A DNA stretch of 20,960 nt from a virus, in IMG/VR virus record IMGVR_UViG_3300017950_000080, positions 1-20,960 of that record. One strand, given 5' to 3'. Within the stretch, counting starts at the first letter, position 1; each line of letters opens with the position of its first letter. Both the position numbers and the translations under genes were made by a program. This document shows positions 2-15,143 of the stretch, piece by piece. A model generated the notes under the pieces. The model worked only from the letters and a program-made list of their open reading frames with translations, was not told the DNA's origin and made no database searches.

Positions 2-2185
2 TTGATAGAACCAGACATAGCATCATTAATCACAGCAAAATCTATTATCAACTCAATAACTATTGCAAGAAAACTTACAAGTGCAGCCATAAATGTGGCC
101 AGTAAGATTGAAGATGAAGTAGCGTTAAGAACGTTTGAAGAGTCCAATCCAGAGCATTATGGAATAGTAAAAACAGACCTAGATAAAAGGTCGTTTGGAT
201 ATATGTACAAAAGAAGGAAACTTAGAGAGTCTGCTCAAAAAAATAAATTAGAGTGGGTGTTGTGGACAAGAAGTGAAAAAGTTCACGTTGGTTACAAACT
301 TATTGAATTAATGGTTTTATCTACTGGCTTGTGTGAAGTGAAAGCGCAGCTCAAAAGAAAAAGACAAGAGAAAGTTTTATTGCCAACTGAAAAAACATTG
401 CAATGGATTAATGATAGAAATGATTTCTTAGAAGTTCTTGCACCAGAATATTTTCCAACTTTAGTTGTCCCTAGAATGTGGGAGGAAGGTAAAGTTTCAG
501 GTGGTGGTTACTATTCAAGACACATAAAACCATTAACTTTAGTTAAATATAGAAACAGAGATAACTTACAGCAAATCAAAGATGTTAAAATGCCTATTAT
601 TTATAGAGGCATAAATGCAATGCAAAGCACACCATATAAAATTAATAATTTTGTATTAAAAGTTTTACAAAAAGCTTGGGACAAAAATATTCCAATTGGA
701 GGATTACCGAAAGCTGAACTGGAAGATTTGCCTAATAAACCGCATGACATTGAAACTAACACCGAAGCTCGTAAACTTTACAGACAACAAGCTGTATTAA
801 TTCACACTGAAAATGCTAGACAAAAATCTAAAAGATTATTGTTTGCAAAAGTTTTGTGGATTGCTGATATGTTTAAAGACAAAGTTTTTTATCACGCACA
901 CACATTAGATTTTCGTAGTAGATGTTACCACGTAACTAATTATTTAAATGGACAGGGCGTTGATTTTGCAAAGGCTTTACATTTATTTGGTACTGGTAAA
1001 AAAATTACAAAAGAAAACAATGGTGAATTTTGGTTGGCAGTTACGGGTGCAGCTCTATTTGGAATAGATAAAGTTAGTCGTAAAGAACAGCTAGAATGGG
1101 TAATGAGTAACCAACAAATGTTTGACGAAATACAATCAGACCCGTTTACATTTAAAGAATGGGAACACGCAGACAAACCTTTTCAATTTCTTGCGTGGGT
1201 AAATGAGTGGTGTGAATTTAAACAAAAAGGTTACGGTTATGAAAGTCATTTTATTTGTAACCAAGATGGGAGTTGCAATGGTATTCAGCATTACAGTGGA
1301 ATACTAAAACATACACCTTCAGCAAAAGCTGTTAATCTTGCAAACAGTGAAAGACCGCAAGATGTTTATACAGTAGTAAAAGATAAAGTTATTGAAAATT
1401 TAAAAACAATGACTGACAGTGAGTTCGCAAAACTTTGGTTAAAGTTTGGAGTTAAACGTTCAACTGTTAAAAGAGCAATTATGACTAGTCCTTATGGTTC
1501 AACAAGATACTCATGTAGTGATTTTGTTGATGAGGACATCGTAAAAAGAAAAGACCAGGGTGACCTACATCCATTTGGGACAGCATCATTTCAAGCTTGT
1601 ACATTTTTGGCAGGAGTGATTTGGGACTCAATGGGTGAAGTTTTATCTTCGGCAAGATTAGGTATGTCATTCTTACAAGATTGCGCTAAAGTTTTAGCAA
1701 AATCTGGACACGCTGTACGTTGGAATAATCCAGTTGGATTTCCAGTGATACAAGATTATCCAGAATTTAAATCTATGAGAGTTAAAACTAAATTGTTTGG
1801 TGAAATAATAAAACCAAGAATAAACGTTGAGACAGAAAAGTTTTCAGTTAATAAAGCTAAAAACTCCTGTCCACCAAACTACATACACGCACAAGACTCA
1901 GCACATTTATTTATGACGGTTGTAAAATCACATGAAAAAGGTGTGTCTCATTTTTGTAATGTGCATGACTCGTTTGGAACATTGGCTGCAGACAGTCAAA
2001 CTTTAGCTGACACTATCAGAGAAACATTTGTTGATATGTATTCTCAAGGTTGTCCTTTAGAAGATTTTAAACAATCAATGTTACCTATCTTAAATGACAC
2101 ACAAAAAGAAAAATTACCTCAAGTACCTCCACAAGGAGACTTCGATATTAACGAGGTTTTAAAGAGTGAATTTTTCTTTGCTTAA
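2..2185 (+). CDS. T7-type single-subunit DNA-directed RNA polymerase (5' end cut off)
   Basis: The enzyme transcribes phage middle and late genes from phage-specific promoters. The frame is open from the window edge for 727 codons; T7 RNAP has 883 residues, so part of the N-terminal domain lies upstream and the TTG at base 2 is probably not the true start. Catalytic residues are visible, numbered from base 2. The metal-binding Asp of DGSCNGIQH is codon 422 (T7 D537). The KRAIMTSPYG block has Lys490 and Tyr498 (T7 K631 and Y639). The VHDSFG block has His655-Asp656 (T7 H811-D812). The C-terminus is FFFA, like the FAFA foot of T7 RNAP that reaches the active site. The region before PPNYIHAQDSAHL corresponds to the promoter-specificity loop and differs from T7, so a different promoter sequence is expected. 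Family assignment is firm; the start is unknown. Confidence 0.97.
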   Translation: MIEPDIASLITAKSIINSITIARKLTSAAINVASKIEDEVALRTFEESNPEHYGIVKTDLDKRSFGYMYKRRKLRESAQKNKLEWVLWTRSEKVHVGYKLIELMVLSTGLCEVKAQLKRKRQEKVLLPTEKTLQWINDRNDFLEVLAPEYFPTLVVPRMWEEGKVSGGGYYSRHIKPLTLVKYRNRDNLQQIKDVKMPIIYRGINAMQSTPYKINNFVLKVLQKAWDKNIPIGGLPKAELEDLPNKPHDIETNTEARKLYRQQAVLIHTENARQKSKRLLFAKVLWIADMFKDKVFYHAHTLDFRSRCYHVTNYLNGQGVDFAKALHLFGTGKKITKENNGEFWLAVTGAALFGIDKVSRKEQLEWVMSNQQMFDEIQSDPFTFKEWEHADKPFQFLAWVNEWCEFKQKGYGYESHFICNQDGSCNGIQHYSGILKHTPSAKAVNLANSERPQDVYTVVKDKVIENLKTMTDSEFAKLWLKFGVKRSTVKRAIMTSPYGSTRYSCSDFVDEDIVKRKDQGDLHPFGTASFQACTFLAGVIWDSMGEVLSSARLGMSFLQDCAKVLAKSGHAVRWNNPVGFPVIQDYPEFKSMRVKTKLFGEIIKPRINVETEKFSVNKAKNSCPPNYIHAQDSAHLFMTVVKSHEKGVSHFCNVHDSFGTLAADSQTLADTIRETFVDMYSQGCPLEDFKQSMLPILNDTQKEKLPQVPPQGDFDINEVLKSEFFFA

Positions 2186-2201: not shown

Positions 2202-2207
2202 GTTAAT

Positions 2208-2224
2208 TAGTACCCCTATTAGAA
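2208..2224 (+). promoter_or_regulatory. Putative phage RNAP promoter, copy 1 (TAGTACCCCTATTAGAA)
   Basis: This 17-nt motif lies in the 54-bp gap between the RNAP stop and the next start codon. It recurs at 11998-12014 with a single mismatch (C to A at position 9). Both copies lie between modules, close upstream of a start codon (2240 here, 12025 there), and directly ahead of a ribosome binding site (CGGAG at 2230-2234 here). T7-like phages place promoters for their own RNAP in such gaps. The motif does not resemble the T7 consensus, which fits the divergent specificity loop. Promoter function is inferred from repetition and position. Confidence 0.55.
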
Positions 2225-2239
2225 CTAACGGAGTAAAAA

Positions 2240-2341
2240 ATGAAGTACGTTCAAATGCCTTTAGACGAAGGCGTAGCCCTAATTGAAAAAGGCTATTTAG
2301 ATGAAGAAACCACAAATGAGGAAAATGACAATGAAGAATAA
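2240..2341 (+). CDS. Small acidic protein, 33 aa, position of T7 gene 2
   Basis: This 33-codon ORF starts MKYVQMPLDE and ends TNEENDNEE. It has 11 Asp/Glu against 2 Lys, and no Arg or Cys. CGGAG at 2230-2234 lies 5 nt before the ATG, a good ribosome binding site. The gene directly follows the candidate promoter, and its 3' end overlaps the start of the ssDNA-binding protein gene, which suggests translational coupling. In T7 the same slot just before gene 2.5 holds gene 2, a small inhibitor of host RNA polymerase. I see no sequence match to gp2, so a shared role is only a positional guess. No family is recognised. It could also be a short leader peptide that sets SSB translation. Confidence 0.6.
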   Translation: MKYVQMPLDEGVALIEKGYLDEETTNEENDNEE

Positions 2342-2960
2342 GTACATAAAGATTGTTACACCAAAAGGAGTTGCACAATATCCGTGGCTCAGTTCACCGG
2401 ACACTAAGTTCAGTGAAATAGGTGAATATAAAACAAATCTTATACTAAATAAAAAAGACGCTCAAGATATTGTAAAATCAATTGAAGGAGTAAGAGAAGA
2501 AAGCATGAAACTTGCTGCCGAAAAATCAAATGGCAAAAAAGTTAAACAAGCTGATGCACCATACTTTGATGAAGTAGATGAAGAAGGTAAACCCACTGGA
2601 AATGTAATTTTTAAATTTAAATGCAAAGCAAAAGTTACAACAAAGAGTGGAGATACTTTTGAAAACAAACCTACATTATTTGATGCAAAAGGAAAACCAA
2701 TGTTAAATGTAAATGTATGGGGAGGTTCTGAAATAAAAGTAAGTGCAGAACTTATTCCGTATTTTACCAGTATGGTTGGGGCAGGAGTCTCAATGAGACT
2801 TAGAGCTGCACAAATAATTAATTTAATTGAAGGTGGCTCAAATTCTTCTGGTTACGGTTTTAAAGAAGAAGAAGGATATGAACACTCGGCTACGCAATCC
2901 ACTGAGGAGTTCACAAATGATGCACCGACTGAGATACCAGAAGATAAAGACGACTTCTAA
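2331..2960 (+). CDS. ssDNA-binding protein, T7 gp2.5-like
   Basis: The protein coats single-stranded DNA at the fork and recruits the polymerase and primase-helicase. The chosen start at 2331 gives 209 aa (T7 gp2.5 has 232). GAGG at 2318-2321 lies 9 nt before it, whereas the in-frame ATGs at 2325 and 2301 are less well placed. The N-terminal part, with KIVTPKGVAQYPWLSSPDTKF, has the beta-rich character of the gp2.5 OB-fold. The last residues, PTEIPEDKDDF, form the acidic tail with a terminal Phe that is the hallmark of gp2.5; in T7 this tail docks onto gp5 and gp4. Placement between RNAP and endonuclease I matches T7 order. The first 11 nt overlap the preceding small ORF and the last 44 nt overlap the endonuclease gene. 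Confidence 0.88.
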   Translation: MKNKYIKIVTPKGVAQYPWLSSPDTKFSEIGEYKTNLILNKKDAQDIVKSIEGVREESMKLAAEKSNGKKVKQADAPYFDEVDEEGKPTGNVIFKFKCKAKVTTKSGDTFENKPTLFDAKGKPMLNVNVWGGSEIKVSAELIPYFTSMVGAGVSMRLRAAQIINLIEGGSNSSGYGFKEEEGYEHSATQSTEEFTNDAPTEIPEDKDDF

Positions 2961-5532: not shown

Positions 5533-7238
5533 GTAAATACTGTTTTGATATAGAAACAGACAACTTATTAGAAGAATGTACGAAGGTGCATTGCATAGTA
5601 TTAAAAGATATAGAGACTAAAGAAGTATTAACTTTATCTAACGACCAAGCTATAGACAAACTATGTAATGCTGAACTTATTATCGGACATAATATAATTA
5701 AGTTTGATGTTCCTGTATTAGAAAAATTATATAACTTCAAAACTAAAGCAAAAGTTTTTGACACATTAGTTGCTACCCGTTTGATTTGGTCTGACTTATT
5801 AGAGTCTGATATGAAACGAGTACATACAAAAAATTTTCCTACAAAATTAGTCAACAAGCACAGTTTAAAAGCATGGGGTGTTAGACTAGGAAATTATAAG
5901 CAAGAGTTTGAAACAGACTGGAAAGAATTTTCAAATGAAATGTTAGAATATTGTGTTCAAGATGTAGAAGTGACTTTCAATCTTTACCAAATAATTTTGG
6001 GTAAAAAATATTCGGAAGAATCTTTAAATCTCGAACACTCTGTAGCCACTCTTATATCTAGACAAGAAAGATATGGTGTAATGTTTGACAAAGAAAAAGC
6101 TGTCAAGTTATACGCAGACCTGTCCGGTCAAAGAGATAAGATAACTAAAGAAATGGAAGAAACATTTAAACCTATAGTGGTTAAAAGAGTTTCTGAAAAA
6201 ACTGGTAAGCCATTAAAAGATAAAATTGTAGAGTTCAATCCTTCAAGCAGAATGCATATAGCTGAAAGATTAATTGATAAATACAATTGGAAACCAAAAG
6301 ACTTTACACCAGATGGTAAACCAAAAGTAGATGATACTGTTTTAAATAATTTAGATTATCCAGAAGCAAAACTGTTAGCAAAATATTTTCTTTTAGAAAA
6401 AAGAATTGGAATGTTAGCCGAAGGTAATCAAGCTTATCTAAAACTAGAACGTAATGGTAGAATACATGGAACAGTAAATACAAACAACGCAGTCACAGGC
6501 CGTGCTACTGCAATGAAACCAAACTTACAACAAGTTCCCTCTGTCAATGTTCCTTACGGAAAAGAGTTTAGAGAATTATTTACTGTACCAAAAGGTAAAG
6601 TATTAATCGGAATAGATGTAAGTGGTCTTGAGTTGCGATTGCTTGGACATTACATTGCTAAATTTGATGGTGGTGCATACGCTGACGTTGTAGTCAACGG
6701 TGATATACACACTACTAATCAACACAATGCGGGTTTAGAAACCAGAGACCAAAGTAAGAGATTTTTGTACGCCTGGCTTTACGGTGCGGGAGTTTCAAAA
6801 ATCGCAGAGGTAACTGGCAAAACTAATAAAGAAGCAGCAAAAGTTAAAAAGCGTTTCTTAGATAGATTGCCTGCATTAAATAAATTAATCAAACAAGTAC
6901 AACTTTCTGCTGAACGTGGTTATTTGGTTGGTCTTGATAAAAGACAAATCAAAGTAAGAAATACTTTCAGCGCACTTAACACTTTGTTGCAAGGGGCAGG
7001 CGCAGCCGTTTGTAAACAATGGTTAGTTGAGTTTGATAACACTGTTAAAAACACTTTAGGCGTTCAACAAATATTATGGGTACATGATGAAATACAAGTT
7101 GAGTGTGATGAAGACAAAGCAAAAGAAATAGGAGAGTTGGCTGTCGAATGTATTAAACGAACTGGTGAACACTTCCAATTACGAGTGCCGTTAACAGGCG
7201 AATATAAAATAGGTAACAATTGGAGTGAAACACATTAA
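5529..7238 (+). CDS. DNA polymerase, family A, T7 gp5-like
   Basis: This is the replicative polymerase with 3'-5' proofreading. It has 569 aa, against 704 in T7. The exonuclease domain has Asp7 and Glu9 (FDIETD), Asp60 (KFDVPV) and Tyr141/Asp145 (YCVQD). Polymerase motif A is GIDVSGLELR with Asp363. Motif B is RDQSKRFLYAWLYG with Arg406, Lys410 and Tyr414. Motif C is VHDE at 518-521. The catalytic set is complete. Only about 22 residues (214-235) separate EETF from EFNPSSR, where T7 carries the ~76-residue thioredoxin-binding loop, so that clamp is largely missing. Tyr414 equals T7 Y526 (E. coli F762). The start overlaps the previous stop and the stop overlaps the next start (TAATG). Confidence 0.97.
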   Translation: MSKYCFDIETDNLLEECTKVHCIVLKDIETKEVLTLSNDQAIDKLCNAELIIGHNIIKFDVPVLEKLYNFKTKAKVFDTLVATRLIWSDLLESDMKRVHTKNFPTKLVNKHSLKAWGVRLGNYKQEFETDWKEFSNEMLEYCVQDVEVTFNLYQIILGKKYSEESLNLEHSVATLISRQERYGVMFDKEKAVKLYADLSGQRDKITKEMEETFKPIVVKRVSEKTGKPLKDKIVEFNPSSRMHIAERLIDKYNWKPKDFTPDGKPKVDDTVLNNLDYPEAKLLAKYFLLEKRIGMLAEGNQAYLKLERNGRIHGTVNTNNAVTGRATAMKPNLQQVPSVNVPYGKEFRELFTVPKGKVLIGIDVSGLELRLLGHYIAKFDGGAYADVVVNGDIHTTNQHNAGLETRDQSKRFLYAWLYGAGVSKIAEVTGKTNKEAAKVKKRFLDRLPALNKLIKQVQLSAERGYLVGLDKRQIKVRNTFSALNTLLQGAGAAVCKQWLVEFDNTVKNTLGVQQILWVHDEIQVECDEDKAKEIGELAVECIKRTGEHFQLRVPLTGEYKIGNNWSETH

Positions 7239-11050: not shown

Positions 11051-11997
11051 GTTTATTAAAATCAAGAGAATATTACAAACCGTTTCAATACCCTTGGGCA
11101 TTTGAAGCTTACGACCAACAACAAAAAATGCATTGGTTACCTAGTGAAGTGCCTTTAGCTGAAGATGTTAGAGATTGGAATGAAAGATTAAATCCAAAAG
11201 AAAAAAATTTAATTACACAAATTTTAAAATTCTTTACTCAAGGCGATGTAGATATTGCTCAAGCTTATCTTGATAATTATATTCCTAAATTCAAACCACC
11301 AGAAATTCGTATGATGCTTTCATCTATAGCTACTAGTGAAGCAAATCATGCACACTCATATTCATTACTTAATGATACAATAGGTTTACCAGACAGTGAG
11401 TATAAAGCTTTTCAAGAATACAAAGCTATGTCTGATAAACACGATTATCTTTTTAGAACTAAAGGTGATGGCATTGAAGGTATGGCCAGAGAACTTGCTA
11501 CCTTTTCTGCTTTTGGAGAAGGCTTACAATTATTTGCATCGTTTGTAATGTTGTTAAATTTTCAACGTTACGGCAAAATGAAGGGAATGTGTCAAATCGT
11601 AACTTGGTCTATAAGAGATGAAAGTCACCACGTAGATTGTTTGATAAAATTATTTCATTCTTTAATTGATGAAAACAAACACATTTGGAATGATGATTTC
11701 AAAAAAACTTTATACGATATTGCTAGAGATATGGTAGCACTAGAAGATAAGTTTATTGATTTAGCATTTGAGCAAGGCGGTGTTGAAGGTATAGAACCTA
11801 ATCAAATTAAACAATACATCAGACATATTGCAGATAGAAGACTACTACAATTAGGATTGAAACCTAATTTTGCTGTAAAAGATAACCCATTGCCTTGGCT
11901 TGATTGGGTTCTAAATGGCGTAGAACATACAAATTTCTTTGAAAATCGTTCTACTGAATATGCTAAAGGCAGTATGACTGGAGATTTATGGGGCTAA
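11047..11997 (+). CDS. nrdB: Ribonucleotide reductase class I, small (beta) subunit
   Basis: NrdB holds the metal-tyrosyl cofactor that starts the NrdA reaction. It has 316 aa, against 376 in E. coli. All cofactor residues align: Asp67 (QGDVD), Glu98 and His101 (SEANHAH), Glu158 (FGEGLQ), and Glu192 and His195 (DESHH), matching E. coli D84, E115, H118, E204, E238 and H241. Tyr105 matches radical Tyr122, so this is a tyrosyl-radical enzyme and not the Phe-containing class Ic type. The C-terminal tail, with Tyr in STEYAKG, supplies radical transfer and NrdA docking. The start overlaps the SpeD-like stop. The candidate promoter for the virion genes begins on the base after its stop codon. Confidence 0.97.
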   Translation: MSLLKSREYYKPFQYPWAFEAYDQQQKMHWLPSEVPLAEDVRDWNERLNPKEKNLITQILKFFTQGDVDIAQAYLDNYIPKFKPPEIRMMLSSIATSEANHAHSYSLLNDTIGLPDSEYKAFQEYKAMSDKHDYLFRTKGDGIEGMARELATFSAFGEGLQLFASFVMLLNFQRYGKMKGMCQIVTWSIRDESHHVDCLIKLFHSLIDENKHIWNDDFKKTLYDIARDMVALEDKFIDLAFEQGGVEGIEPNQIKQYIRHIADRRLLQLGLKPNFAVKDNPLPWLDWVLNGVEHTNFFENRSTEYAKGSMTGDLWG

Positions 11998-12014
11998 TAG
12001 TACCCATATTAGAA
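11998..12014 (+). promoter_or_regulatory. Putative phage RNAP promoter, copy 2 (TAGTACCCATATTAGAA)
   Basis: This matches 16 of 17 bases of the motif at 2208-2224. It fills the 27-bp gap between nrdB and the first gene of the virion module, exactly where T7-like phages switch to late genes. AGAAGGA at 12011-12017 overlaps its end and forms the ribosome binding site of the next gene. Part of the similarity at that end could come from this, but TAGTACCC and TATTAG are outside any ribosome binding function. Confidence 0.6.
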
Positions 12015-12024
12015 GGAAAACAAT

Positions 12025-12222
12025 ATGAATGAACTAGATGATATTCAATTGCCTTACACTGTGGATGAACTTATTAAAACTTTAGACAAAGTTTTTCCAG
12101 AGAAAGCACCAGACTTAAAAGATTCTGAACGTACTGTTTGGCATAAAGCAGGACAAAGAAGTGTAGTCAATTGGTTACTTGAATTAAAAAATAGAAACGA
12201 AAACAATTTATTAGGAGGTTAA
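12025..12222 (+). CDS. Hypothetical protein, 65 aa
   Basis: The chain YTVDELIKTLDKVFPEK, then DLKDSERTVWHKAGQRSVVNWLLELKNR looks like a small all-helical protein with a conserved WxxAGxRxxVxWL core. I recall similar short proteins ahead of the structural genes in other marine T7-like phages, without a known function. It is acidic in the first half and mixed in the second, with no signal peptide or membrane helix. It is the first gene after the candidate late promoter. An AGAAGGA ribosome binding site supports the start. Confidence 0.75.
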   Translation: MNELDDIQLPYTVDELIKTLDKVFPEKAPDLKDSERTVWHKAGQRSVVNWLLELKNRNENNLLGG

Positions 12223-14979: not shown

Positions 14980-15143
14980 GAAAGCCTAAGTAAGGCAAAA
15001 GATAGTTGTGTTACCTGTTTAGGTAGCAACTCGCTGACACAAAGTTAAGTACATTAACTTGACCGTTCTGAGGAACGACAATCTTGTGAAGAATAAGACT
15101 AAGTGAAAGCTTTTTAAATAACAAAGCTATAAGGAGAAATAAT
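14980..15143 (+). other. Structured leader upstream of the capsid gene
   Basis: This is the longest gap in the window and holds no ATG-started ORF. Visible stems, in order: AGTTG 15004-15008 with CAACT 15027-15031 enclosing TACCT/AGGTA (15012-15016, 15021-15025, loop GTTT); AAGTTAA 15042-15048 with TTAACTT 15054-15060; CGTTC 15064-15068 with GAACG 15073-15077, loop TGAG; AGCTTT 15108-15113 with AAAGCT 15123-15128. A weaker GCCT/AGGC pair lies at 14984-14996. AAGGAG at 15131-15136 is the capsid ribosome binding site, just after the last stem. It may be a processed, stabilised 5' leader, hold a late promoter, or be a small RNA. T7 places a promoter and an RNase III site in this gap. Confidence 0.55.

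Follow-up and report, generated by a model that had tools for sequence, protein, structure and literature searches.

Promoters read by the single-subunit RNA polymerases (RNAPs) of phages T7, T3 and SP6 have about 17 bases before the initiating G, a zone from -11 to -7 that corresponds to the specificity loop, an AT-rich melting box, a C at -7 and a purine start; T7 carries 17 such promoters. The T7 RNAP loop (residues 739–770) contacts -11 to -7, with N748 reading -10 and -11 and R756 and Q758 reading -9 and -8, and no change is tolerated at -9 to -7 (PMC5937735; PMC7948468). In the Pseudomonas phage LUZ100 (OP329100), which encodes a T7-like RNAP, an integrase and a MarR protein, phage promoters of the form ATTACCACACAGTTATG have been mapped at the transcript level by ONT-cappable-seq (PMC10134795). 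The sequence-only reading of the DNA described here called promoters of pelagiphage-type RNAPs poorly defined. For these enzymes, the open-access literature offers no described promoter except a PHIRE prediction for the HTVC031P enzyme (R20), AACTAATGCTCAATTTAGAGATA (PMC11475235). The same study reports that all 16 of 16 enzymes with less than 30% DNA-binding-domain identity to T7 were inactive (PMC11475235).

The DNA analyzed here, termed the window, is an entire IMG/VR record of 20,960 bases that starts within a T7-like single-subunit RNAP gene (2..2185, + strand, 5' end lost at the window edge), whose product is the proposed promoter reader. This protein matches T7 RNAP by sequence (E 9e-111) and is 47–90% identical to pelagiphage RNAPs. 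A 17-nucleotide motif occurs twice on the + strand, as TAGTACCCCTATTAGAA at 2208-2224 and TAGTACCCATATTAGAA at 11998-12014; a check of the letters bore out the sequence-only reading, which had placed the copies there with one mismatch in 17. They are the sole matches at up to three mismatches on both strands of the whole window, while dinucleotide shuffles gave a mean of 0.12 such matches and none of 100 held two. Both copies fall within the non-coding portion of the window, about 3.3% of its length under our choice of genes. The conserved element starts slightly further upstream than the 17-mer and, counted from the proposed start G, covers about -17 to +4 (AATTAGTACCCCTATTAGAAC, 2205..2225, + strand, and TAATAGTACCCATATTAGAAG, 11995..12015, + strand).

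The initial reading further located the copies in short gaps at module borders, the first directly downstream of the RNAP gene and before the gene for single-stranded DNA-binding protein (SSB), the second between nrdB and the virion genes. Both do lie at gene borders, and the RNAP gene ends just upstream of copy 1, at 2185; the first border, however, separates RNAP from a small open reading frame as well as SSB. This 33-aa ORF (2240..2341, + strand), at the equivalent place of which the relative S42-C7 is annotated with a hypothetical protein, is the first gene past copy 1 and overlaps the start of SSB (2301..2960, + strand), where the proposed middle (replication) operon begins. The proposed +1 of copy 1 is G2222, giving an 18-nt leader with GGAG at 2230-2233 before the ATG at 2240. 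Copy 2 begins right after nrdB's stop codon (11995-11997) and shares bases with the Shine-Dalgarno sequence of the next gene (12025..12222, + strand), the proposed start of the late (virion) operon; here the proposed +1 is G12012, with AAGGA at 12013-12017 in a 13-nt leader before the ATG at 12025.

The motif shares with the T7, T3 and SP6 promoters each of the features listed above, including, in an alignment made by eye with LUZ100 and T7, a recognition stretch of about 17 bp, an AT-rich melting box and an initiating purine. It differs from T7 in having CCC rather than CTC at -9 to -7 and TATTA rather than TATA, and there are five sites per genome in this group, fewer than in T7. Membership of the T7 promoter group itself (TAATACGACTCACTATAG) was rejected, with CCC replacing CTC and identity only scattered. 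The LUZ100 promoters, aligned by eye, have the same length from an A/T-rich start to the initiating G and occupy homologous borders upstream of RNAP, between RNAP and SSB, and after the terminase. Their core is ATTACCACACAG and the window-type core is ATTAGTACCCC; the LUZ100 RNAP is 37% identical to that of the window, and the loop 19–25%. The equal length up to the G in mapped LUZ100 promoters supports a +1 at G2222 and G12012, an assignment good to about two bases, since the end points annotated for the LUZ100 features vary slightly. LUZ100 has eight mapped promoters, one of them close to the capsid gene; those of the window are predicted from sequence.

A counterpart of the LUZ100 capsid-gene promoter was sought and rejected, the motif being absent from the corresponding gap. 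That gap (15002-15086 in the window) and its equivalents in 12 relatives instead hold a conserved structured RNA leader of two hairpins, the first AGUUG...CAACU enclosing a variable inner stem and the second ACC-NN...NN-GG. Both sides change in 7 of 13 pairs, 92% of cells are paired versus 78% in shuffles, and the leader has no Rfam match at E 0.5, as is also the case for the window as a whole.

The nearest complete genome is that of the uncultured phage MedDCM-OCT-S42-C7 (Sieqvirus; S42-C7 above), whose RNAP is 90% identical to the window's. It contains exactly five sites with zero or one mismatch, all on the + (coding) strand and all at gene borders: RNAP/SSB (start 566), nrdB/virion, past nrdB (10029), internal virion protein/tail fibre (25223), past the large terminase, where the first bases of the site overlap the terminase stop (33827), and integrase/RNAP (40380). 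With about 10% of the genome non-coding, the chance of five out of five falling at borders is near 1e-5. The same five sites, with more variation, occur in HTVC309P, S46-C10, HTVC134P, HTVC120P and Unn; in HTVC309P the predicted transcript starts are at about 6682, 9214, 18586, 33402 and 40458. In the window, a scoring matrix made solely from these five relatives gave its two highest scores to copy 1 (29.8 bits) and copy 2 (19.9 bits), with 10.4 bits for the next position and at most 16.0 in 30 shuffles. In S42-C7 the five sites took the top five ranks with 29.8 to 19.9 bits; the runner-up scored 11.6 and the best shuffle reached 19.5. Contig L003, which is 99.94% identical to the window across 8.1 kb and extends it leftward, has the expected site upstream of RNAP. 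The check proposed in the earlier reading, whether the motif is restricted to intergenic, coding-strand positions, came out in its favor in related complete genomes, where it sits at gene borders in the coding orientation.

A related but different motif is found at the same borders in deeper relatives: AAAGTACCCATAGTAGAA and similar sequences in HTVC031P, HTVC109P, Eistla and HTVC142P, and AAAGTTACACTATTAG and similar sequences in HTVC019P, HTVC304P and HTVC022P. HTVC022P has sites starting at 6673, 16489, 31016 and 41891. In HTVC031P the motif sites are at 2716, 5227, 15030 and 29784, all at gene ends. A matrix built from the HTVC031P group fails to separate the HTVC309P sites from background because -11 and -10 vary there. 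In the L033 genome, TATTAG has become TATATG jointly in four of the five sites while the remaining one keeps TATTAG, as expected if one trans-acting enzyme reads all sites; L033 (a contig of 42,597 bases) and L047 form a subclade with the TATATG start box at four sites.

Sampling was widened with an IMG/VR scan for AGTACCCMTATTAGAA. Among the matches listed, pelagiphage-like sites lie at the five borders in gene orientation; the other matches are mostly chance occurrences in unrelated DNA, some of them within nrdA, and such chance matches to the 16-mer, in nrdA or unrelated contigs, are a minority of those listed. In 31 distinct RNAP/SSB gaps from the window clade, mean information within the motif is 1.94 bits per position, a figure inflated by choosing gaps that hold it, against 0.58 upstream and 0.96 downstream. 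The motif is conserved in relatives, the second check proposed in the earlier reading. It forms a conserved block within an otherwise variable gap and is still present in L024 and L028, where the gap is reduced to the RNAP stop codon. In six contigs (L220, L232, L233, L235, L236 and L240), the motif just past RNAP has an additional base separating the core from the start box (AGTACCCGTACTTAGAAC), and the spacing may tolerate one base. Tandem promoter-like arrays, in which AATTAGTACCCATATTAGAAGG alternates with TTAAAGTACCCTTATAGA, follow the terminase in L127 (approximately 1970-2130), L088, L090, L083, L103 and L079, which are other, more distant contigs.

Alignment with T7 RNAP and 25 relatives places the specificity-loop region of the window RNAP at residues 583-608 of its ORF (IQDYPEFKSMRVKTKLFGEIIKPRIN, 1748..1825, + strand). 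RNAPs with a GE[IV]IKPRIN loop are followed by [AG]GT[ATG]CCC in 55 of 55 distinct loci, and those with a FAPQIK loop by A[GC]TTACA in 19 of 22, with search patterns shaped by examples seen beforehand and with loop classes that cluster by ancestry, such that the 55 and 19 loci represent few independent events. The other three FAPQIK loci (L266-L268, loop CSHLMGEVFAPQIK), HTVC019P relatives of the HTVC021P type, had no match within 150 bases after RNAP, which counts against the promoter reading. For HTVC021P-type RNAPs, the RNAP-adjacent site was not found, and two other sites were. The promoters proposed for HTVC019P, HTVC304P and HTVC022P share syntenic borders and the TATTAG/TTTTAG start box with the window, but pair AGTTACA or ACTTACA with a FAPQIK loop, whereas the window pairs AGTACCC with IKPRIN. 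The strongest single contrast is that of HTVC031P with HTVC019P and the window. With the loop left aside, HTVC031P RNAP shares 69% identity with HTVC019P RNAP and 48% with the window RNAP. In the second half of the loop, by contrast, it has GEVIKPRIN (GEIIKPRIN in the window), and its promoter core, AGTACCC, is that of the window, while HTVC019P has the loop GEVFAPQIK and the core AGTTACA. These comparisons strongly support a core that tracks the RNAP specificity loop and not RNAP ancestry.

Smaller groups, read by eye, pair IQPVIR with GTCTCCC, IQPQIR with CCTGCAC and IQSTIR with CCTGCCC; CCTGC forms recur at several places in contigs of the latter two types. When +1 is set at the G of TAG, most of the differences between groups map to -12 to -7; a C at -8 and the TATTAG box are retained. 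The variable positions coincide with the contact zone of the T7 loop (PMC5937735; PMC7948468). Tentatively, and with slightly less than even confidence, we suggest a recognition code in which the loop residues (IKPRIN, FAPQIK, IQPVIR, IQPQIR, IQSTIR) would set the -9 to -7 triplet (CCC, ACA, TCC, GCA and GCC, respectively), phages switching the loop and about five promoters together to give mutually orthogonal pairs; that these residues alone set the triplet is something we infer. HTVC031P RNAP belongs to the same loop class as the window RNAP, and the PHIRE-predicted AACTAATGCTCAATTTAGAGATA occurs once in its genome, at 33805, within the gp42 coding sequence. The published promoter for HTVC031P is probably wrong.

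Based on the presence of a single-subunit T7-family RNAP in the same genome, the location of a short element at operon starts on the coding strand with few or no copies within genes, its T7-like architecture, and the correspondence, through co-variation across clades, of bases about -11 to -7 to the specificity loop, we consider it very probable that the phage's own RNAP uses the motif as its promoter, as the sequence-only reading had proposed. The specificity loop would read about -12 to -7 (GTACCC, whose CCC occupies -9 to -7), the A/T-rich box TATTA (-5 to -1) would melt, and RNA would begin at G2222 and G12012, leaving very short leaders with Shine-Dalgarno sequences. We infer the following temporal roles: the host RNAP would make the early transcripts, that of the phage RNAP among them, after which the phage enzyme would fire five promoters. 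The site upstream of RNAP would provide self-amplification, the RNAP/SSB site would serve the middle genes and the nrdB/virion site the late genes, with one further site preceding the tail fibre and another following the large terminase, the latter at the genome end like T7 phiOR. Because the record starts inside the RNAP gene, other copies in the full genome are invisible from the window, which would hold only two of the five promoters. RNA-seq of HTVC022P infection shows early, middle and late genes in neighboring clusters, with RNAP expressed early (PMC12753301), and this arrangement fits the five-promoter model.

A host promoter is a very improbable alternative. TATTAG somewhat resembles a -10 box at which SAR11 RNA polymerase could start with sigma-70 or another sigma factor, but neither copy has a sigma-70-like pair (-35/-10, 16–18 bp spacing), and such matches are rarer in the window than in its shuffles. 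Moreover, conservation is concentrated at -13 to -7 rather than at -35, and the core changes with the loop of the phage enzyme. Exact matches to the extended 20-mer are also absent from 84,980 bacterial and archaeal genomes (one per species), on which basis a cellular origin of the element was rejected as well.

Equally slight is the probability that the motif terminates transcription or directs RNA processing where operons end. Several relatives have a weak hairpin (e.g., CCACTAGTGG) before the RNAP/SSB copy, and a foldable GGGGGCTAnAAGTCCC-type sequence follows two of the five sites. The hairpins are nevertheless absent from other sites and from L024 and L028, where the motif adjoins the RNAP stop codon; the motif has neither a stem nor a T-run, and no terminator-like site (GC-rich hairpin plus T-run) was found at either window copy. 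The GGGGGCTAnAAGTCCC-like sequence opens the would-be transcript at the RNAP-upstream and post-terminase sites (L003 from approximately 1720; L057 from 40394 and from 33841 onward; L058 from 6682 onward) and folds in two of three tested examples (approximately -9 kcal/mol), not convincingly better than shuffles.

The motif might instead bind another phage regulator, such as a MarR-type protein, or mark a replication or packaging site, with the RNAP involved indirectly; this too we regard as highly unlikely. The post-terminase copy is near a genome end, and in four Foussvirus-type genomes the RNAP-upstream copy lies within a perfect palindrome, ATTGGTTC-N8-GAACCAAT (L058 6666-6689 and the same place in L060, L061 and L062). 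However, the palindrome is unique in each genome, does not recur at MarR, and is missing from both the window clade and S46-C10. The records of HTVC031P, HTVC142P and Eistla list no MarR or integrase gene and yet have the motif, and its core tracks the RNAP loop. Perhaps the palindrome is an operator over the promoter. A tRNA-like fragment (GCTCTTAGCTCAGTTGGATAGAGCATCGGTTTTCTAATC) also lies in the integrase/RNAP gap of L057 (approximately 40210-40280), where other pelagiphages have different tRNA-like pieces; judged by eye, it is likely an attachment site.

Least probable of all is a conserved translation-initiation or leader element whose copies resemble each other through shared Shine-Dalgarno context: copy 2 overlaps AAGGA and a start codon immediately follows three of the five sites, but AGTACCC, the best-conserved stretch, lies upstream of the Shine-Dalgarno, the RNAP-upstream and post-terminase sites are not directly before a start codon in complete genomes, and the motif is missing at most start codons of these genomes.

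A promoter of the phage's own RNAP, the reading we favor, is an element of a well-known kind; what is new, as far as found in the open-access literature, is the class of sequence, the arrangement in five sites and the series of loop/promoter pairs. SAR11, the most abundant bacteria in the sea, are the hosts of HTVC019P-type phages. A defined promoter would provide a transcription map for these phages, with five sites and five operons, and would make pelagiphage RNAPs testable and usable in vitro. The co-variation of loop and promoter would offer natural specificity variants of T7-like RNAPs for studying how the loop reads DNA.
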